Source: Ruminococcus sp. (GTDB lineage Bacteria > Bacillota > Clostridia > Oscillospirales > Ruminococcaceae). From it: a stretch of DNA of 51,141 nt. Positions 4,696 to 32,099 of the stretch are shown here, piece by piece (position 1 is the stretch's first letter; every line of letters starts with the position of its first letter). The notes beneath the pieces were generated by a model. The model saw only the letters and a list, made by a program, of their open reading frames with translations. It was not told the DNA's origin and did no database searches. The translations under genes were made by a program, and so were the position numbers. The DNA is taken from assembly GCA_017397925.1 (NCBI GenBank), contig JAFQHO010000080.1, forward strand, positions 1 to 51,141. The letters run 5' to 3'.

Positions 4696-4722
4696 AAAGT
4701 CGGGGCAAACCGCCCCGACTAA
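4696..4722 (-). terminator. Terminator of the flavin operon
   Basis: AGTCGGGGC/GCCCCGACT stem with a T run on the minus strand, immediately after the stop of the Gx-family gene. Confidence 0.85.
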
Positions 4723-4729
4723 TCTACCG

Positions 4730-5281
4730 TCAAATTTGTATACTGTTACTTTTGGGATTGAGATTAATCCTTTTCAGCACAAGCATTGCACAAGTACCTG
4801 TAAACAGACCTGCAATACTTCCTGTTACAATGAGTATTGGATAATAAGCAAAAACAGAAAATGTTTTCATCACAATAACAGCCGCAATAATTTGCCCTGT
4901 ATTGTGCAGAATTCCACCTACAACACTTGAAAGCCACAGATATTTATTCGGAATAATCCTGCTTACAACATACATTCCGCATAAGCAGAAAAATGCACCT
5001 GCGGCACTATATATCAACGACGATACATTTCCGCTGAATACTGCACCAAGAAAAATCCTCACAATAACAATCATAGCTGTTTCGCTTTTTCTGAAACGAT
5101 AGACAACGAAAACTGTTATAATATTTGCAAGTCCTGCTTTTACTCCGGGAATTGGCAGTAAATTCGGCAATCTCAGTTCAATTATAAATATTATAAGTGC
5201 CATTGATGTGAGAAGTGAAAGCTGTGTAAGCCTTTTTATTCCCGATGATTTACACATATTGACGTCTGTTGTATTATTCAC
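4730..5281 (-). CDS. Gx transporter family / heptaprenyl diphosphate synthase component I-like membrane protein
   Basis: An integral membrane protein with about five helices, of the family labelled Hpre_diP_synt_I or 'Gx transporter' (PF07456). It shows LPIPGVKAGLANIITVFVVY near the N-terminus, then RIFLGAVFSGNVSSLIYSAAGA and GGILHNTGQIIAA. The biochemical activity of the family is not settled. Members are repeatedly found beside ApbE and FMN-binding proteins, and as I recall the Listeria extracellular electron transfer protein EetB belongs here. That fits this position as last gene of an operon containing ApbE and an FMN-binding ferric-reductase-like protein. Its usual NusG-II-domain partner (EetA) is not in the window. 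About 60 bp separate it from apbE; GAGGTG provides the ribosome site. Confidence 0.85.
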   Translation of the reverse strand: MNNTTDVNMCKSSGIKRLTQLSLLTSMALIIFIIELRLPNLLPIPGVKAGLANIITVFVVYRFRKSETAMIVIVRIFLGAVFSGNVSSLIYSAAGAFFCLCGMYVVSRIIPNKYLWLSSVVGGILHNTGQIIAAVIVMKTFSVFAYYPILIVTGSIAGLFTGTCAMLVLKRINLNPKSNSIQI

Positions 5282-5342
5282 GGTAAATCACCTCTGTTTC
5301 GTAGGACACAGTAAAATTAATAAAATCCGAAAGTCCCTCAGA

Positions 5343-6308
5343 CTATATTATTTTTTCATCATCGGTAATCAGTATCATTTCAAAATCTGCTGAATTTCTC
5401 CAGTAATCTATTGCCTTATCTGTACCCAAAACAAAAAGAGCCGTAGAAAGTGCGTCACAGAGCAAGCCGTTTTCGCCGACAATTGTAACGGAAACAAGTC
5501 CGTTATCAGCTGGGAAACCGTCGGCGGAATCAAGGATATGCCAATATTTTCTGCCGTTTTCATCTGTGAAAAATCGTTCGTAATTCCCAGATGTTATTAC
5601 AGCCTTATCTGCAATTTCGAGTATACATACCTGCTCCGACGGCGAAAAGGGATTTTGTACGCCCACTTTCCATAATGTACCGTCAGGCTTTGTGCCAACT
5701 GCGTGAACATTTCCACCAAGATTTACAAGTGCAGATTTCACACCGTTTTCTTTCAGAATTTCAGTTACACAATCGCTTGTATATCCCTTTGCCAATGCAC
5801 CGAAATCAATCTGCATATTATCGGGCAGCTGAACAGTATTTCCTTTTACAGATATTTTTGTGTAGTCAATAAGTTTAAGCTTATCCGCTATAATATCATC
5901 TGTGGGAACTTGCTGTGTATCGGTTGTAAAACCCCATTCAGTCAGCAATGGATATATGGTAACATCAAGCGCTCCGTTAGTCTTTCCGCCTATTTCAATT
6001 GCTTTATTAAGCACAGTAATTGTATCATCAGAAACGGAAACAGGCTCGCCATTGGAATGATTTATTGCCCATATATCGCTTTTTTCAGAGGTTACGGAAA
6101 AAAGTTCCTCTAACGACAAAATCTGCTCCGAGGAATATCCAAGAGCAGTATCAGCGTGTTCTCCGTATGCTTTGAGATACATATATGTATCCATTGCAAA
6201 AATATCACGGGAATATTCTTTTGTATCCTCCGAGGAGGACTCTGCGGAATTTGCACATCCGCAGAGTGTAATCAAGAAAAGGAAAAATAATGTTGTAATT
6301 TTTTTCAT
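5343..6308 (-). CDS. apbE: FAD:protein FMN transferase (ApbE), lipoprotein form
   Basis: Transfers FMN from FAD onto a Thr of extracytosolic flavoproteins, in a Mg-dependent reaction. Visible family marks: YMYLKAYGEHADTAL, FGALAKGYTSDCV (substrate and Mg site), LVNLGGNVHAVG, SGNYERFF, YWHILDSADGFPAD and CDALSTALFVLG. The N-terminus is a signal peptide with lipobox LCGC (Cys18), so the enzyme works outside the membrane. I start at the ATG at 6308 rather than 6332, because only then does the signal peptide begin with MKKITTLFF; it then follows the upstream stop by four bases. The direct neighbour (6313-7668) carries a textbook flavin attachment motif and is the obvious substrate. Confidence 0.94.
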   Translation of the reverse strand: MKKITTLFFLFLITLCGCANSAESSSEDTKEYSRDIFAMDTYMYLKAYGEHADTALGYSSEQILSLEELFSVTSEKSDIWAINHSNGEPVSVSDDTITVLNKAIEIGGKTNGALDVTIYPLLTEWGFTTDTQQVPTDDIIADKLKLIDYTKISVKGNTVQLPDNMQIDFGALAKGYTSDCVTEILKENGVKSALVNLGGNVHAVGTKPDGTLWKVGVQNPFSPSEQVCILEIADKAVITSGNYERFFTDENGRKYWHILDSADGFPADNGLVSVTIVGENGLLCDALSTALFVLGTDKAIDYWRNSADFEMILITDDEKII

Positions 6309-6312
6309 AAAT

Positions 6313-7668
6313 TTATTTTCTCGCCATATCAAGTGCGGCGGCTACAGCCGCCATTATAGCGTCAGAACTGTATGTAGCACCCGAATAAGCATCAACCTGT
6401 GTGCTTTGTGTATTAAGAATCTGGGAAATAACATGAGGTGCAGCTGAATCGTAATACCACGAATCACTTTCATAAGTAACACCCGTAATGTCAACTATAA
6501 CATCGTTTTCGATTGTCACGCTGACTTCAATATCACCGTCATAACCATAAGCCGCAGCGGTATATGTACCATTATTGTAGATATATACAGGCTCAGGCTC
6601 TGTTTCAGGTTCTGGCTCAGGTTCGGGTTCAGCTTCTTCTTCGGCGGCTTCTTCCTCCTCAGCAATTTCCTCCTCTGCCGATTCTTCTTCTGCTTCTGTT
6701 TCTTCTTCGGTTACACTTTCAGTAGATTCTTCCGTTGTTTCTTCTGTAGCTGTTGTAACTGTTGTTTCTGTTGTATCTGTATCTGTTTCAGCTGTTGTTG
6801 AAGAAGTTACCATTTCAGAAGAAGTTATTGCTGTCGTGTTATCCTCAACAGGTTCATCTTCTGCAATTTTCACCGCAGCAGGTTTTACAATTGAACTATT
6901 TTTAACAGGAGAACTTTTTGCCGCTAAACAGGGCGTCATAAGCATAACTGCAAATGCAGGAACGCACACAGCATTTACAAACTTGATATTTTCAGCCTTT
7001 TTGCGTAATAAATACCATTTGCGGATACGGCAAACAGCATAACCAATGAATACAATGCTGTATGCAAATACACTCAAAAAATAACCCTGTCTGCCTGCTT
7101 TTGCCATAGGAACAAAAAGCACCATAACGTGCAGATACATCATTCCATAGAAAAGATAAGCAGTTCTCTGAATTTTCTTCCACAGCTTTGCATTCATCTT
7201 TTTGCGTATCTGTGGGAATGACATTACTGTCAGAGGTATCATAATAATCAGCATTGCAATTGTGAGAAAACTTGCAGTAAGCTGTTCTGCTGACATACGT
7301 GAAGCATCGGTAAACAGTCTTACAAAATAAGTTTTTCCGTAGCCGATATTATGACCTAAAGTCAGAATTGCCGCAAATATGGACAGTTCCCCACGTATAG
7401 GCATAAATGCTTTTATGGGTTTTGAGCCGTTAGGGAAAGCACCTGTCCACATTACAACCGCCCACAAAGCTGTTCCAAATGCACCACGGCTAAACAATCC
7501 TATGATATATGTGTTTACAAATTCGGGTACATTGCGGAAATCTACAGCCGCAACGATAATTGATATAACAGCCGCCCCTGCATAAAAGATATAGGGGTGC
7601 TGTTTCAGTGGCTTTTTGCACAGATAAGCAAATCCGAAAGCCGCCGCAATAGCAATGAGAAAAAGCAT
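6313..7668 (-). CDS. Ferric-reductase-like membrane domain fused to FMN-binding domain
   Basis: Residues 1-255 are a six-helix domain of the ferric reductase/MsrQ type. Likely haem-ligand histidines sit in TLGHNIGYG and in MMYLHVMVLF. Residues about 262-360 are a Thr/Glu/Pro-rich extracellular linker. Residues about 362-451 are an FMN_bind domain: YNNGTYTAAAYGYDG, then DAYSGATYSSDA at 426-437, where Thr432 would receive FMN through ApbE. The protein would carry electrons across the membrane through haem to covalently bound flavin outside. It starts 20 bases after the surface-protein stop with AAAGGCGG as ribosome site. The substrate (Fe(III), another acceptor, or a partner protein) is not visible from sequence. 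Confidence 0.9.
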   Translation of the reverse strand: MLFLIAIAAAFGFAYLCKKPLKQHPYIFYAGAAVISIIVAAVDFRNVPEFVNTYIIGLFSRGAFGTALWAVVMWTGAFPNGSKPIKAFMPIRGELSIFAAILTLGHNIGYGKTYFVRLFTDASRMSAEQLTASFLTIAMLIIMIPLTVMSFPQIRKKMNAKLWKKIQRTAYLFYGMMYLHVMVLFVPMAKAGRQGYFLSVFAYSIVFIGYAVCRIRKWYLLRKKAENIKFVNAVCVPAFAVMLMTPCLAAKSSPVKNSSIVKPAAVKIAEDEPVEDNTTAITSSEMVTSSTTAETDTDTTETTVTTATEETTEESTESVTEEETEAEEESAEEEIAEEEEAAEEEAEPEPEPEPETEPEPVYIYNNGTYTAAAYGYDGDIEVSVTIENDVIVDITGVTYESDSWYYDSAAPHVISQILNTQSTQVDAYSGATYSSDAIMAAVAAALDMARK

Positions 7669-7688
7669 ATTATTCCGCCTTTCTCACA

Positions 7689-9203
7689 TTAGTCATTTTT
7701 CTTTCTGAATGTAACTGCTGCAGCACCTGCAAGTGTAAGCATGACCGCAGGAATAGCAACTCCTGCTACACCTGTTTTAGGGCTGTCTGTGGAGGCAGCT
7801 TTCTTTGTAGTAGCTTTTTTAGTAGTTGTTGCTTTCTTTGTAGTTGTAGTAGTTTTAGTTGTTGTTGTGCTTTCTGTTGCAGCTGCTGTTGTCATAACTT
7901 CTGCCTGTGCCGCTGTAATTGTAAATTCAAGAGGAGTTGTATAACCTGCTGCATTTACTGTCATTTTATAATTTTCGCTTCCGTCAAATACATTATTTCC
8001 GCCTGATGCAACAGTAAAATCAATTGTACCGTCAGCACCAAACATCTTTACGCTCTTTCTTCCTGACACTTTATATTCTGTTCCATTTACGGAAGCTGTT
8101 GAAAGATTTGCAAGGAAGTTTGCAAACTCCTCATCAGTTGCATTTTCAGCTTTTACAAGCTTTCCTGTACCGTCAAATGCGGCAGGCATATCTGCTGTTG
8201 TAAGATTGAATGTTACAGGAACATCAGCGTATACACCGCTTTCATCACTTACTGTGAGAGTATATGTACTGGGAACAGCGTCAGTATATGTAAGAAATCC
8301 CTCTGCAACAGAAGCATTAAGTCCCTCAACAGAATATTTCATCTTGTAATCAGCAGGGAATCCTGTAGTTGTTACAGCAGTTGTTCCTGTCTTTATGTCT
8401 GCATCTTCAACCTTAGCAGAACCGTCAAATTTCACAGGAACGTATGCAGAAGCTGAAACATTGTAATAGCCATTTTCGGTAATCATAACCATTTCTGTTA
8501 TTGTATCGCCCATAAGTCCAACAAAATCTTCGTAAGTGAGTGTATTTCCGTGAGGTTCCGATGTAACAAATCCCGTTGACCAGGCAAGCTCCCCTCTCCA
8601 GATATTTTCCTCGTGACGCATTGCGTAGCTTTCACCGCTTGCAGTTTTGAGAATCCAACCGTAAGTTATGCCCATATCTTCGGGAGTTCCCTCAACAGTA
8701 AGAAGATAATCTCCCCACGCTGTACTTGTTCCGATTTCAACTTTAGCATCTGTAACAGAAACAGGTTCAGCATCATTGACAGCAGAAAAAGCAGCCTTAC
8801 CCTCAGCAACAGTTACTGTTTTATATGCCGCAGGTGTAGTATCAAGAGGTGTAAATCCGTAATTATTTTCGCCAAGAGCGTTTAAAGCTTCCTGCGTAAT
8901 AGCAACAGGATATGTTACACCGAGAATAGTTCCTGTTCCGTCCTCGTTAGCCTGATTGTATGTACCCTCAAACAGTTCGCCCTCGCCGTTCTTGCACCAC
9001 TTTGATGTTGTTGCAGATGAAACTGCGTCAACTTCGTATTCGTTGGCAGAGCCTGCAATTTCAGCTTTGTAAAAATCTGCGTATGGAATGTTCATCGTTC
9101 CATATATCAATTCTTCTCCCTCAGCCGCTGCACTTATAGGCATAGCACCGAGCATTACAGCGATACAAGCAGATGTACCAATGATTCTTCCTGTTTTCTT
9201 CAT
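7689..9203 (-). CDS. Sortase-type cell-surface protein, Tp47-like, possible flavoprotein
   Basis: First gene of the flavin operon. It has a signal peptide (MKKTGRIIGTSACIAVMLG...AAAE), a large extracellular part, a Thr/Lys-rich wall spacer (TTTTKTTTTTKKATTTKK), then SPKTG, a hydrophobic helix and KKND, a sortase-anchoring layout with Ser in place of the usual Leu. The start YGTMNIPYADFYKAE and the domain order remind me of clostridial proteins annotated 'penicillin-binding Tp47 domain', though no penicillin-binding activity should be assumed. About 30 residues into the mature protein (62-68, counted from the upstream GTG) is DAVSSAT, close to the D-x-x-S/T-G-A-T target of ApbE. I start at ATG 9203, eight bases after AAGGAG, not at the GTG at 9212. 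Confidence 0.82.
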   Translation of the reverse strand: MKKTGRIIGTSACIAVMLGAMPISAAAEGEELIYGTMNIPYADFYKAEIAGSANEYEVDAVSSATTSKWCKNGEGELFEGTYNQANEDGTGTILGVTYPVAITQEALNALGENNYGFTPLDTTPAAYKTVTVAEGKAAFSAVNDAEPVSVTDAKVEIGTSTAWGDYLLTVEGTPEDMGITYGWILKTASGESYAMRHEENIWRGELAWSTGFVTSEPHGNTLTYEDFVGLMGDTITEMVMITENGYYNVSASAYVPVKFDGSAKVEDADIKTGTTAVTTTGFPADYKMKYSVEGLNASVAEGFLTYTDAVPSTYTLTVSDESGVYADVPVTFNLTTADMPAAFDGTGKLVKAENATDEEFANFLANLSTASVNGTEYKVSGRKSVKMFGADGTIDFTVASGGNNVFDGSENYKMTVNAAGYTTPLEFTITAAQAEVMTTAAATESTTTTKTTTTTKKATTTKKATTKKAASTDSPKTGVAGVAIPAVMLTLAGAAAVTFRKKND

Positions 9204-9243
9204 AAAAAACACTCCTTAAATTTATTTTATGGCTTTCGCCTTT

Positions 9244-9259
9244 GTTAGTTTATACTTAC
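9244..9259. promoter_or_regulatory. Candidate operator upstream of the flavin operon
   Basis: GTTAGTTTATACTTAC is an imperfect dyad about 40 bases before the surface-protein start. It resembles GTTATATTCCACTAAC at 9730-9745 in front of the DtxR-type gene: both carry a GTTAGT/ACTAAC half site. No confident -35/-10 pair was found for this operon. A second dyad, TGCACGA/TCATGCA, lies at 9278-9295. Confidence 0.4.
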
Positions 9260-9302
9260 ATATCGACAAAAAATATATGCACGACACATCATGCACTATA
9301 AT

Positions 9303-9695
9303 CTACTGTTCATTATTGATTTTCAGAAATAAATCCATTAAAGAGCATATGGTATGTTCAGAACCATATACTACAAAAGAAACTGCGTCCGCCTTTGCCT
9401 GATGTGAATCAATGCCAAGCTGTTTTGTCAGAAAACGATAGATAACGCTCACCTGATTATATATTGCCCTTGCAGGAACAAGTCCTTTTTGGGTAAGCTC
9501 TATGCTGCCATAAAACGCTTTTTGCAGATAACCTCGTTCATACAGCTTTGTTGTCATACAAGTTGCACTGGATTTACTCACTCCAACGGATTTTGCAAGC
9601 TCAGTAGTCTTAACAGTTCCTTTCTGTTTGTAAAGCTGATATATAGCAAAAAGATAGTGTTTCTGGGAGCAGGTAAGACTATCGCTGTTATCCAT
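9303..9695 (-). CDS. DtxR/MntR-family transcriptional regulator, degenerate metal site
   Basis: A 130-residue DNA-binding regulator. Residues 1-65 are the DtxR winged helix: YLFAIYQLYKQKGTVKTTEL, then SVGVSKSSATCMTTKLYERGYLQ and IELTQKG. The rest resembles the dimerisation/metal domain (FLTKQLGIDSHQAKADAV...SEHTI). Compared with MntR, positions equivalent to Asp8, Glu11 and His77 are His, Phe and a non-ligand, while the EH pair is kept. Metal sensing may thus be altered or lost. No SH3-like domain is present. It lies just upstream of, and in the same direction as, the flavin operon, and has its own promoter overlapped by a perfect inverted repeat. An iron or redox role is inferred from the neighbours. 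Confidence 0.8.
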   Translation of the reverse strand: MDNSDSLTCSQKHYLFAIYQLYKQKGTVKTTELAKSVGVSKSSATCMTTKLYERGYLQKAFYGSIELTQKGLVPARAIYNQVSVIYRFLTKQLGIDSHQAKADAVSFVVYGSEHTICSLMDLFLKINNEQ

Positions 9696-9725
9696 ATAAT
9701 CACATCCTTTTATGGATTGTATAAT

Positions 9726-9782
9726 CTGTGTTATATTCCACTAACCGTAAAATAGTATAACACAGAAAATAGAGTTTGTCAA
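9726..9782 (-). promoter_or_regulatory. Promoter with embedded operator, DtxR-type gene
   Basis: On the minus strand: -35 TTGACA (9777-9782), 17-bp spacer, -10 TATACT (9754-9759). A perfect 10-bp inverted repeat, CTGTGTTATA (9726-9735) and TATAACACAG (9756-9765), overlaps the -10 and brackets the start of transcription. This layout fits autorepression by the encoded regulator; that part is inference. Confidence 0.65.
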
Positions 9783-11775: not shown

Positions 11776-12372
11776 TTAATACTCCTTAAAGTTTAACGTA
11801 ATTTCAATGTTTTTTACTTCTTTTGTATTTTTGTCACATCTTAATTCAATTCTCTCAGTGCCTGTTTTACTAAGATAATAAAAGAAAATATCGTTTGATT
11901 TATATGGTGTACCAAAAATTTTTTCTGCTTCTTCAAGTGTAGCTCCTTTTCCTATTCCCTGTACGGTTAAACTTTCAGGATTTGAAATACGTGTGCATTT
12001 TGTATCGTCCGTGTATTCTTCTGCGGTAATACCATCAAAAAATAAATAACACACCTTTTCTTCACTACCGTCATCATTAACCTTGACAACAGCACCGTCA
12101 CAACATTTTTCTTCAAACAACGAATCATAAATATAATCCATTTCATAGCCTTTTCCGAGGTCGTTTACACAAAACGGAAAATCGATTTTCTTCCCCTCAA
12201 AGGTTATATCCTGCTTTACTTTCTCCCAATCAAATCCTTCTGATAGGTTTTCAGTAGCACCTACAGAGTCCGCTGTGGAATCAGGTTCCGAGTTGTTATC
12301 GACTCCGCATCCACACGCTGCCACTGCCAGCATAACCGAACAAAGAAACAAACTAAGTATTTTTCTTTTCAT
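11776..12372 (-). CDS. Small lipoprotein, copy 2
   Basis: A 198-residue secreted lipoprotein. MKRKILSLFLCSVMLAVAAC gives a good lipobox (V-A-A-Cys20). The mature part starts with a Ser/Asp/Glu-rich linker, followed by a domain with FPFCVNDLGKGYEMDY and a C-terminal SLTVQGIGKGATLEEAEKIF, parallel to the STKEDVLKKFGEP region of copy 1. The first 42 coding bases equal those of copy 1, while the mature parts are well diverged. It follows copy 3 by nine bases; its ribosome site (AAAGGAG) overlaps the end of that gene. The two form one unit. Function unknown. Confidence 0.8.
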   Translation of the reverse strand: MKRKILSLFLCSVMLAVAACGCGVDNNSEPDSTADSVGATENLSEGFDWEKVKQDITFEGKKIDFPFCVNDLGKGYEMDYIYDSLFEEKCCDGAVVKVNDDGSEEKVCYLFFDGITAEEYTDDTKCTRISNPESLTVQGIGKGATLEEAEKIFGTPYKSNDIFFYYLSKTGTERIELRCDKNTKEVKNIEITLNFKEY

Positions 12373-12381
12373 AAATCTCCT

Positions 12382-12996
12382 TTATACTTTTTCAAATCTA
12401 ATTGATATGTGATTAACACAATCGTCTCTACATATTACTTTAATTGTAAATTCTTCAGTTTTAAAGTCAAGTGTATATGTTTTTTTCTCATCATCCCATG
12501 AATAATCACTTTTTTCCATAAAATAAAGGTTCTTAAGCATTGTTTCAGATGATGAACCTATTGTTACACCATTAACGGAAACAGGATATTCTATCTTTTC
12601 ATCAGATTCAAGGTCAAATATTATGGAATTAAGTGGTGAATCAAAAACTTTATCTTCACCGTTACATTGCATAACGCTAAAATAACCTACTCTTTTTCCA
12701 TTGAATAAAATACGAGCGTTGGCACTTTGGTTGTCTTCTCTGTAAACAAGCCCTAATTCATCATTTGTATCAATTTCAAATTCATCTCCGAATTCACGAA
12801 GTGTACATATTGGAGAAATATTTTTCCCATTTATAAGTACAGCTTCACACAATTTTTCCGTTGTCCATTCCTCTGTTGATATGTCTGTTATTACGATATC
12901 ACTTGGTTGTATCACAGTTTTATCATGTCCACAACCACATACAGTACCTGATAGAATGATTGAGCATAGAAATAGACATAGTATCTTTCTTTTCAT
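12382..12996 (-). CDS. Small lipoprotein, copy 3
   Basis: A 204-residue lipoprotein with signal MKRKILCLFLCSIILSG and lipobox VCGC (Cys22). The mature region shows GKNISPICTLREFGDEFEID, corresponding to the LSELDNGLTYEF region of copy 1, and NGVTIGSSSETMLKNLYF, corresponding to the SmpA-like element. It is first gene of a two-gene unit with 11776-12372. Its promoter region (13002-13127) is a near copy of 2600-2725. The three paralogues share a plan: signal peptide, low-complexity linker, two conserved patches. A ligand-binding or adapter role is conceivable but unproven. Confidence 0.8.
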   Translation of the reverse strand: MKRKILCLFLCSIILSGTVCGCGHDKTVIQPSDIVITDISTEEWTTEKLCEAVLINGKNISPICTLREFGDEFEIDTNDELGLVYREDNQSANARILFNGKRVGYFSVMQCNGEDKVFDSPLNSIIFDLESDEKIEYPVSVNGVTIGSSSETMLKNLYFMEKSDYSWDDEKKTYTLDFKTEEFTIKVICRDDCVNHISIRFEKV

Positions 12997-30244: not shown

Positions 30245-30296
30245 ATACTCGTGGTTTATTATGGTAAATCGCAAAAATGATATGGAGGAATTAAAA

Positions 30297-32099
30297 ATGA
30301 AGAAAATGAAAAGAATTGCAGCTATGACAGCGGCTCTGCTGATTTGTTCAGGAGTTATGGGATATATGCCTGCGGAAACGCTGAAAGGCGGCGGATTTGC
30401 GGCAAATGCGGCTGGGGATACTGTTGCTGAGAGTGTTGAAATCAATGAAACCAACTTCCCTGATGAGATTTTCAGACAGTATGTGGCTGAGAGATATGAT
30501 AGAGACGGGGATGGAGTGCTTTCTGCGGAGGAAATCAACCGCGCATCAGATATGAGCGCTCATGGATTAGGAATTTCAGATGCAACAGGAATAGAATATC
30601 TGACTGAATTGACATGGGTTTCTTTAAACAACAATAATCTTACGACGCTTGATGTAAGTAACAACAAAAAGTTGAAGACATTATCATGCTGGAGAAATAA
30701 ATTGACGAGCATCAACATAAGTGGTTGTGCTTTATTGAAAGATTTAAATGTAGAAAGGAATCAATTTACAAATATTGATGTAAGCGATGCTGTATCGTTA
30801 ACACATTTAATATGTTTTGAAAATCAACTCACAACTCTTGATGTTAGCAAAAATACTGCATTGATTGATTTGGATTGTGCTGATAATCAACTCGATTCAC
30901 TTGATGTTAGCAATAATACTGCTTTAAAATATTTGGATTGTGAAAATAATCAACTCACTTTACTCGATGTAAGTAATAATACAAAATTATTAAGTTTAAA
31001 TTGCTCTAATGATGGTTTTTTCAATGAAGAGGAGCCAATTTATTGGAATCAATTAACTTCACTTGATGTAAGCAAGAATACTGCATTAGAAACTTTGCAT
31101 TGTAATAATAATCAACTTACTTCACTTGATGTAAGCAAGAATACTGCATTAGAATCTTTGTATTGTGATAATAATCAACTTACTTCACTTGATGTTAGCC
31201 AAAACACTACATTGAGGAATTTGTATTGTTACAAAAATCAACTAACTTCACTTGATGTCAGTAACTGTACTGCATTGACAAAGTTAGTGTGTTATAAAAA
31301 TCAATTCACATCTATTGATGTTAGCAAAAATACTGCATTAACTGATTTAAGTTGTGCTGATAATCAACTCGCATCTATTGATGTTAGCAAAAATGCTGCA
31401 TTGACTGATTTGAATTGTGCTGATAATCAACTCACATCTATTGATGTCAGCAAAAATGCTGCATTAGAATGGTTGTCCTGTGGCAGTAATCAGCTTACTT
31501 TACTTGATGTCAGCAATAATACTGCATTGACTGACTTGAATTGTGATAATAATCAACTCACATCTATTGATTTAAGTAACATAGCATCATCAAATGCCTA
31601 TATTTGGTGGAATGAATACGAAATTTTTCTCACCAACAACACCTTCGACCTCTCCACCCTCCCCACAGGTTTTGATGTAACAAAAGCCTCTGACTGGAAA
31701 AATGGCACAGTAAACGGCAATATTCTTACAGTTGAGGACGCTTCAAAGGAAGTTACATATAAATATGACTGCGGAAAAAAGCAAACTGTAACATTTACCT
31801 TAATCCCCACAACTTCTACAGAAACTCCCGAAAAGCCTCCTGTTTCAGCTCCAACTGTTTCATTAGGCGATATAAGCAGTGATGGCTCAATTGACTCCAG
31901 CGACGCAACACTTGTTCTCTCCGATTACGCAGTAATCGCAACAGGCGGTAAATCCACATTTACAGCCGAGCAGGCTAAAGCTGCCGATGTAGACGGCGAC
32001 GGCAAATATGATTCTATCGACGCTTCAATTATCCTCGCCTATTATGCACACACCTCCACAGGCGGTACAGGCACACTTGAAGAATATCTCAATTCATAA
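30297..32099 (+). CDS. Secreted leucine-rich-repeat protein with EF-hand and dockerin-like domain
   Basis: About 600 residues. Signal peptide KKMKRIAAMTAALLICSG; an EF-hand-like loop DRDGDGVLSAEEI near residue 70; about 15 leucine-rich repeats of 21 residues with consensus L-x-x-L-x-C-x-x-N-Q-L-T-S-L-D-V-S-x-N-T-A, one carrying a 12-residue insertion; a short domain; then a Pro/Thr linker and a C-terminal dockerin-like pair of Ca loops (GDISSDGSIDSSDA and ADVDGDGKYDSIDA). It would bind a protein or glycan through the LRR face and attach to a cohesin. Start at ATG 30297 after GGAGG. The next genes are SigI/RsgI, which control cellulosome genes in related clostridia. Confidence 0.88.
   Translation: MKKMKRIAAMTAALLICSGVMGYMPAETLKGGGFAANAAGDTVAESVEINETNFPDEIFRQYVAERYDRDGDGVLSAEEINRASDMSAHGLGISDATGIEYLTELTWVSLNNNNLTTLDVSNNKKLKTLSCWRNKLTSINISGCALLKDLNVERNQFTNIDVSDAVSLTHLICFENQLTTLDVSKNTALIDLDCADNQLDSLDVSNNTALKYLDCENNQLTLLDVSNNTKLLSLNCSNDGFFNEEEPIYWNQLTSLDVSKNTALETLHCNNNQLTSLDVSKNTALESLYCDNNQLTSLDVSQNTTLRNLYCYKNQLTSLDVSNCTALTKLVCYKNQFTSIDVSKNTALTDLSCADNQLASIDVSKNAALTDLNCADNQLTSIDVSKNAALEWLSCGSNQLTLLDVSNNTALTDLNCDNNQLTSIDLSNIASSNAYIWWNEYEIFLTNNTFDLSTLPTGFDVTKASDWKNGTVNGNILTVEDASKEVTYKYDCGKKQTVTFTLIPTTSTETPEKPPVSAPTVSLGDISSDGSIDSSDATLVLSDYAVIATGGKSTFTAEQAKAADVDGDGKYDSIDASIILAYYAHTSTGGTGTLEEYLNS

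Follow-up and report, generated by a model that had tools for sequence, protein, structure and literature searches.

Several described systems lie close to the locus considered here. The extracellular electron transfer (EET) locus of Listeria monocytogenes comprises EetB, FmnB/ApbE, PplA, Ndh2, DmkA/B and EetA, and within it the PF07456 protein EetB is needed for export of flavin adenine dinucleotide (FAD) and for flavinylation (PMC9973259). A related group is formed by the MsrQ-like flavinylation systems, some clusters of which carry an iron transporter (PMC8238504), and a fusion of MsrQ with an FMN_bind1 domain has been modelled (PMC11334425). With these, and with the STEAP metalloreductases and the treponemal protein Tp47, we compare an operon in a 51,141-nucleotide stretch of Ruminococcus sp. 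contig JAFQHO010000080.1 (the window, to which all coordinates refer), which occupies 9782-4698 on the minus strand and encodes, in this order, a regulator (REG), a surface protein (SURF), a membrane protein fused to an FMN_bind domain (FRED), an ApbE lipoprotein and an EetB/Gx protein. An initial annotation had described an operon of surface protein, fusion, ApbE, Gx-type protein and DtxR-type regulator, and all five genes (5/5) were found at their place and confirmed by Pfam or NCBIfam; its further proposal, that electrons are passed outward by way of a haem-type membrane domain and flavin, is the likeliest reading of the genes.

Our analysis suggests that this gut bacterium probably uses the operon to push electrons through its membrane to the wall, where they reduce iron for uptake. 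The argument starts from what is directly established, namely the gene content, the motifs, the predicted folds, the pairing of SURF with FRED, and the linkage of that pair to feoB and flavodoxin genes in relatives.

SURF and FRED are a conserved pair. Scanning GTDB genomes yielded 149 relatives, the best 80 of which were kept as loci (L and G handles label the relative loci and genomes in this analysis); by record title 70 of these are Ruminococcus, and the others are Oscillospiraceae, Ruminiclostridium, Clostridia and Lachnospiraceae. Comparison of gene neighbourhoods, the check that the initial annotation had suggested, revealed conserved linkage, with FRED directly after SURF in 78 of the 80 loci. 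A first count had found SURF as an open frame in 76/80 and FRED within 400 nucleotides in 74/80; rechecking the six misses by profile recovered both genes in L072, L084 (where the SURF frame is split in two), L132 and L133, and left SURF without FRED in L082, where SURF is doubled, and in L119. Some contigs end within FRED (e.g. L060, L075, L077), and several L loci duplicate records that also carry G handles, so the L and G counts are not independent of each other. The association extends to the class, for which the SURF and FRED scans of 391 genomes were taken as the same set, their handles agreeing. A FRED-type domain occurred in five of the six genomes with a SURF core and in 11 of the 385 without one (p = 3.4e-7; p = 7.0e-6 when the window's own genome is removed), where the count of six excludes G332, G388 and G407 from the nine genomes matched by SURF profile A1, as these matched in the C-terminal repeat or anchor only. 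The two genes are adjacent in G350 and G386 and apart in G269 and G427, and in G287 the SURF core was present and FRED was not found. Within another family, the order in G350 is SURF-FRED-apbE-NusG_II-eetB (we take NusG_II to be EetA-like), and in G386 feoB-feoA lies divergent from SURF-FRED.

The neighbours of the pair connect it to ferrous iron uptake in many relatives. Neighbourhoods were evaluated from 5.5 kb upstream to 6.5 kb downstream, at least 4.5 kb of sequence being available upstream in 57 loci, downstream in 58 and on both sides in 48. Among loci with sufficient upstream sequence, feoB was found in 26/57, flavodoxin in 28/57, DUF3793 in 27/57 and DUF2325 in 20/57, with at least one of these four iron-block genes in 31/57. 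A chance model assuming five feoB genes per genome gives 26/57 a probability near 1e-26, a rough guide only, as related species are not independent. Among loci with sufficient downstream sequence, apbE was found within the same range in 17/58, eetB in 16/58, NusG_II in 10/58 and a P-type ATPase in 8/58, which shows that the composition the initial annotation had called unusual is not so for the genus. The fullest arrangement is that of L033, where feoA, feoB, AraC, DUF3793, flavodoxin, a divergent SURF, FRED, apbE, NusG_II and eetB follow one another on one strand, and L059, the closest SURF relative among the best 80, carries AraC, DUF3793, flavodoxin, SURF, FRED, apbE and eetB. We also observed that a small protein of about 95 (or 98) residues and a heavy-metal P-type ATPase recur together beside SURF-FRED (L038:11046-13461, L164:11462-13833 and others); NCBIfam recognised the ATPase as such and gave nothing for the small protein, and the two presumably resemble the ferrosome genes fezA and fezB.

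FRED (451 residues; 6313-7668) joins a STEAP/YedZ-like membrane part (residues 1-250; 6919-7668) by a tether (6586-6918) to an FMN_bind domain (6316-6585). Across 47 aligned sequences its only invariant histidines are H106 and H180 (47/47), and the likewise invariant R92 and Q167 precede them by 14 and 13 residues, respectively (each 47/47). In the YedZ/STEAP group, Arg and Gln replace the inner-haem ligands, and only one haem, close to the surface, is to be expected (PMC3591440). The FRED sequence carries this signature, one His pair with Arg and Gln in place of the inner-haem ligands, so it too should have a single haem, facing outward. In the AlphaFold model (mean predicted local distance difference test score, pLDDT, 79.6) the outer helix halves would hold both histidines, and loops 1, 5 and 7 are rich in Lys and Arg, which places the C-terminal FMN_bind domain outside. 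The tether is rich in Glu and Thr, is modelled with low confidence and spans 111 residues in the window and 95-156 across the 47 sequences; it is probably disordered and flexible. Structure comparison with Foldseek placed FMN_bind domains of known structure at the top (E 2e-3 to 2e-2), followed by STEAP4, STEAP1, STEAP2 and cytochrome b561, with weak matches to STEAP4 6HCY (probability 1.00, E 0.04, template modelling (TM) score 0.30/0.31) and to STEAP2 (probability 1.00, E 0.11), such that the evidence from the predicted fold is supportive only. The initial annotation's label of ferric-reductase-like is therefore kept for the residue signature together with the weak STEAP fold matches, and not for the ferric-reductase model PF01794, which FRED does not match.

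In the C-terminal domain of FRED, Pfam recognises FMN_bind (PF04205) at residues 375-447 with 46.1 bits against a cut-off of 22, and the nearest solved relative by profile is the FMN-protein domain 8P2B (E 6e-16). Its sequence DAYSGAT (6393-6373) agrees with the ApbE-substrate motif D-x-x-[ST]-G-A-[ST] (PMC12052999), with D426, G430 and T432 each conserved in 47/47 sequences, position 429 being Ser in 42 and Cys in five and position 431 Ala in 45 and Ser in two, so the domain can probably be flavinylated and carry a covalent flavin. Outside the genus, 17 FRED-type membrane frames were examined from 18 places (a broken frame in G205 was left out), and for 13 of the 17 an FMN_bind domain was part of the same protein or encoded by an adjacent gene; some of these proteins have multiple domains, and two of the frames have a partner of S-layer type (Pfam SLH shown for L188). 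The FRED-type membrane genes of L198, L199 and L200 adjoin a number of separate FMN_bind genes, of which some encode four or five domains.

The flavin would be supplied and attached by the products of the two genes that follow. The ApbE lipoprotein (5343-6308), of the FMN transferase family, matches its Pfam model with 278.2 bits against a cut-off of 25.6. Adjoining it is the PF07456 gene (4730-5281), with 125 bits against a cut-off of 30, whose product we assign to the EetB family, that of the FAD-exporting ECF-S-like membrane protein, from the Pfam match and the linkage to apbE. The initial annotation had called this gene Gx/HepS1-like, and with the corrected assignment the locus is closer to that of Listeria than had been stated. 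A second apbE, with a PF07456 gene, is present in the same genome on contig C26 (L057). Past the apbE stop, at 5343-5281, the reading frame still resembles the tails of its relatives.

SURF (504 residues; 7689-9203) has a signal-peptide-like start and an NPXTG-type wall anchor (SPKTG; NF033846, 31.9 bits against a cut-off of 23.5), and PxTG is found near the C-terminus in 76 of 78 SURF relatives. The SURF proteins of G350 and G386 are lipoprotein-like rather than wall-anchored. The core of the window's SURF is modelled with confidence (mean pLDDT 83.1), and in this model SURF is predicted to share the overall fold of Tp47 (1O75), both chains of which take the first two Foldseek ranks (E 1.5e-9 and 2.7e-9, probability 1.00) at 16% identity over 424 alignment columns, with TM scores of 0.38-0.39 (query) and 0.46-0.47 (target) and a root-mean-square deviation of 9.5-10.3 Å. 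These TM scores below 0.5 mean that single domains match better than the whole. The third rank falls to E 1.7e-6 with TM 0.16/0.26, and since 104 chains reach E 0.001, beta-sandwich proteins evidently score easily, and Tp47 stands out by TM score as well as by E value. In a separate comparison, A6, a profile built from ten divergent SURF proteins, had 1O75 as its single PDB match at E values up to 10 (E 0.021), the alignment covering the N-terminal block as far as DAVS.AT; the tighter profile A1 missed 1O75 at E up to 1, and no Tp47 model was among the Pfam matches listed for SURF (25 of 31 families).

That N-terminal block, YGTMNIPYADFY...VDAVSSAT, is nearly invariant and contains a flavinylation-like motif (DAVSSAT, residues 59-65; 9009-9029). 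VDA[VIF]SS was found in 77 of 79 SURF sequences, the exceptions being one partial frame and the SURF of L082, in which [LI]DAVSSAT occurs twice. With this motif and the Tp47 match, the surface protein, to which the initial annotation had let the electrons pass, is not a generic acceptor. The motif departs from the ApbE consensus, with Ser for Gly in every motif found and Arg at that position in 1O75, which speaks against flavinylation at this site; SURF may possibly be flavinylated nonetheless, by analogy with another protein in which a change of Gly to Ala retained about 50% flavinylation (PMC12052999). We considered that the N-terminal domain might be a hidden FMN_bind domain and rejected this, as profile-profile comparison aligned 12 columns around the motif at a probability of 3.8%. 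In G427, of another family, an FMN_bind domain does precede a SURF module within one protein (L166; 24.4 bits against a cut-off of 22); Pfam confirms the domain there and not in the similar protein of G269 (L167), and matches of our own FMN_bind profile to both arise partly by construction, since it was built from A8, which includes the L166 domain. L166 carries two similar genes, one with a Cys-Gly-rich stretch, and in L082 (8001-10802) two tandem SURF modules share one open frame with apbE, NusG_II and eetB behind and no FRED.

The resemblance matters because Tp47 is a major antigen of syphilis and a standard diagnostic antigen, for which we know of no settled physiological role. It is TP0574 of Treponema pallidum, and two locus tags away TP0572 is annotated as an FMN-binding domain protein and putative membrane protein at 622652-623734 (PMC5607219). 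These coordinates correspond to 360 residues, compared with 357 for FRED in G386 and 374 in G350, so a SURF-FRED-like pair may also exist in spirochaetes, a lead taken from annotation and length only. We suggest tentatively, and with less than even confidence, that proteins of the Tp47 fold serve specifically as extracytosolic partners of flavin-haem reductases of the STEAP/YedZ type and may form a new class, flavinylated or iron-presenting, and that Tp47 would act with TP0572 in flavin-based electron transfer or iron reduction and not primarily in penicillin binding. Among the literature matches listed we found no paper joining Tp47 and flavins, co-mentions being unrelated or in reference lists, in a search that did not include the 2015 mBio paper on T. 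pallidum flavinylation.

Building on these observations we infer haem binding, flavinylation, the donor, the direction, the substrate and the role of SURF, and on balance, and with due reserve, we think it likely that the operon is an outward electron-transfer module, most likely for reductive iron uptake, in which haem, flavin and SURF each have a part. EetB would export FAD, and ApbE would attach flavin mononucleotide (FMN) to the FRED domain. A soluble cytosolic donor, most plausibly flavodoxin or an NAD(P)H:flavin reductase and not quinol, would deliver electrons to the inner face of FRED. We favour such a soluble flavoprotein because a search of the window's genome for UbiA-family prenyltransferases (assembly 90% complete; control positive in 14/14) gave no match, which makes a quinone donor unlikely, because flavodoxin lies beside many copies of the pair, and because MsrQ depends on a soluble flavin reductase. 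Electrons would then pass through one b-type haem of FRED, lying in the outer half of the membrane as in STEAP metalloreductases, to the covalent FMN on its own domain at the end of the long flexible tether. This flavin would reduce Fe(III) directly or through SURF, the wall-anchored Tp47-like protein presenting iron or taking up electrons. Fe(III) is proposed as the acceptor because of the feoB linkage in relatives, and the resulting Fe(II) would enter via FeoB; two FeoB-type genes occur elsewhere in the genome of the window, one of them beside a FeoA-like gene.

A number of observations weigh against this proposal. No iron gene was found near the operon of the window, which implies that the iron link comes from the neighbours in relatives and not from the window; among those relatives, all four iron-block genes are missing from 26/57, and in 10 of the 48 loci with both flanks no iron, apbE/eetB or P-type ATPase gene is present. 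No ferrochelatase was found in the window's genome (control positive in 8/14), leaving the source of haem unexplained. The membrane half of FRED had no match to PF01794 at E up to 1, Foldseek gave nothing for FRED below E 0.001, leaving the STEAP fold matches weak, and in 4 of the 17 frames outside the genus no FMN_bind was found in the stretch fetched. The apbE frame of the window stops about 22 codons before the end of most relatives, which could reflect either genuine truncation or faulty assembly. The module is patchy, as SURF was found in six of the 391 class genomes and in one of 398 genomes in a sparser search of the phylum; phylum-wide spread was accordingly rejected, profile A6 at E 1e-8 returning the window's genome alone of the 398 (an even sample, up to three candidates per genome), and no second SURF core was found in that genome, where other matches were anchor regions. 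Finally, we considered REG as an iron sensor and rejected this, as the first metal ligands are replaced. We take the metal ligands of MntR to be D8, E11, H77, E99, E102 and H103; in the alignment H13, F16 and V82 of REG stand at the positions of D8, E11 and H77, and the E99-H103 region is hardly covered. A REG homologue in L073 keeps Asp, Glu and His at those three positions and scores 51.3 bits for the metal-binding domain, versus 20.3 for REG (cut-off 27). The iron handling that the initial annotation had read from its regulator accordingly finds poor evidence there, and draws instead on the feoB and flavodoxin neighbours of relatives.

Other uses of the same electron flow have to be weighed. 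The operon might serve energy conservation or redox balance, as in Listeria and lactic acid bacteria, by disposing of fermentation electrons onto minerals, humics or other acceptors with iron uptake secondary, which we regard as an unlikely reading. The apbE-eetB(-NusG_II) cassette is as found in EET loci, and apbE/eetB occurs without iron-block genes in 19/80 loci (in the DNA examined), as it does in the window, whereas the iron-block linkage in 31/57 loci argues for iron, and disposal of this kind is not readily squared with a genome in which no quinone prenyltransferase was found and an operon with no Ndh2 gene. Haem-iron acquisition, in which SURF would bind haem or haem proteins for the tethered flavin to reduce or release, seems to us improbable. 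With E values up to 1 allowed, the haemoglobin-interacting model Shr-like_HID picks up 17 of 18 SURF proteins (lowest E 2.7e-9), and an IsdC-like match lies at the SURF C-terminus, but the former stands just at its cut-off in the window (22.3 of 22.3 bits), the latter is weak, and such models may catch immunoglobulin-like domains generally. Failure to find ferrochelatase suggests that the cell may need outside haem, yet the operon has no haem transporter and the recurrent neighbours are Fe(II) genes. Least probable, in our view, is that electrons feed a wall-located reductase or repair system for disulphides or methionine sulfoxide with SURF as substrate or scaffold: the nearest described group of FRED includes YedZ/MsrQ, which feeds a repair enzyme (PMC8238504), but Pfam finds no such enzyme in the operon, and the neighbours of the 80 loci were screened with 16 query proteins among which MsrP and thioredoxins were not included.

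REG (130 residues; 9303-9695) has a DtxR/MntR fold, with the DtxR-type N-terminal domain matching Fe_dep_repress at 45.4 bits against a cut-off of 26, and, its first metal ligands being replaced, may sense something else, acting through a perfect 10-bp inverted repeat with a 20-bp spacer (9726-9765), a candidate operator with no match in 100 window shuffles. The repeat overlaps the -10 box of a sigma-70-like promoter, TTGACA-17-TATACT with a TG extension (9754-9782, minus strand), the top-scoring of 14 sites at 11/12, where the number of such sites is as by chance (14 versus 14.9 in shuffles). Conservation of REG with the cassette was rejected, as a homologue lies near the cassette in 1/80 loci (L073), and there behind it. 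Given a weak terminator-like stem in the REG/SURF gap (9277-9296, minus strand), in a stretch that folds no better than shuffles (z -0.94), REG may perhaps be partly uncoupled from the rest of the operon, which ends in a terminator-like stem of 10 pairs and a T run (4698-4720, minus strand). Around the operon we observed three small lipoprotein-like genes with near-alike signal peptides (2001-2597, 11776-12372 and 12382-12996), two of which have no Pfam match at E 0.001 and which otherwise give weak matches only, and further along a dockerin-bearing leucine-rich-repeat protein (30261-32099) that fits a cellulosome-forming Ruminococcus.

The recurrent pair, found here in a genome with no detectable quinone prenyltransferase, connects the outward transfer of electrons via flavin to genes for Fe(II) uptake among gut anaerobes. 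It adds a family of membrane proteins that would escape a genome survey based on the PF01794 marker, and it gives the Tp47 fold a concrete, testable function. With the EET locus of Listeria monocytogenes the operon shares the ApbE lipoprotein, the EetB-family protein and a surface protein, and NusG_II (EetA-like) is present in a number of relatives and not in the window. It differs in having no PplA-like gene and in that a STEAP/YedZ-like domain fused to the FMN domain stands where Listeria uses Ndh2 and demethylmenaquinone, for whose synthesis no UbiA was found. The different electron source that the initial annotation had proposed holds as far as the operon lacks Ndh2, demethylmenaquinone and NusG_II genes and the genome a detectable UbiA, Ndh2 itself having been looked for in the operon only. 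The MsrQ-like systems (PMC8238504) share a haem-type membrane domain, an FMN_bind partner and ApbE; PF01794 is their operational marker, which FRED does not match, and FRED may still work like one of them. It differs further in its one His pair only, its Tp47-like wall partner and the feoB and flavodoxin genes of its relatives. STEAP metalloreductases have in common with FRED the Arg/Gln at the inner-haem positions, one outer-haem His pair and a weak fold match, whereas FRED is without their NADPH domain, and an outside, tethered, covalent FMN would take the haem electrons. Tp47 (TP0574, 1O75) is the top PDB fold match of SURF and the sole PDB match of the divergent SURF profile, and differs by Arg for Ser inside the motif and from the wall anchoring of SURF. 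Outward electron transfer by flavins is known already; the link to Tp47 is unexpected.

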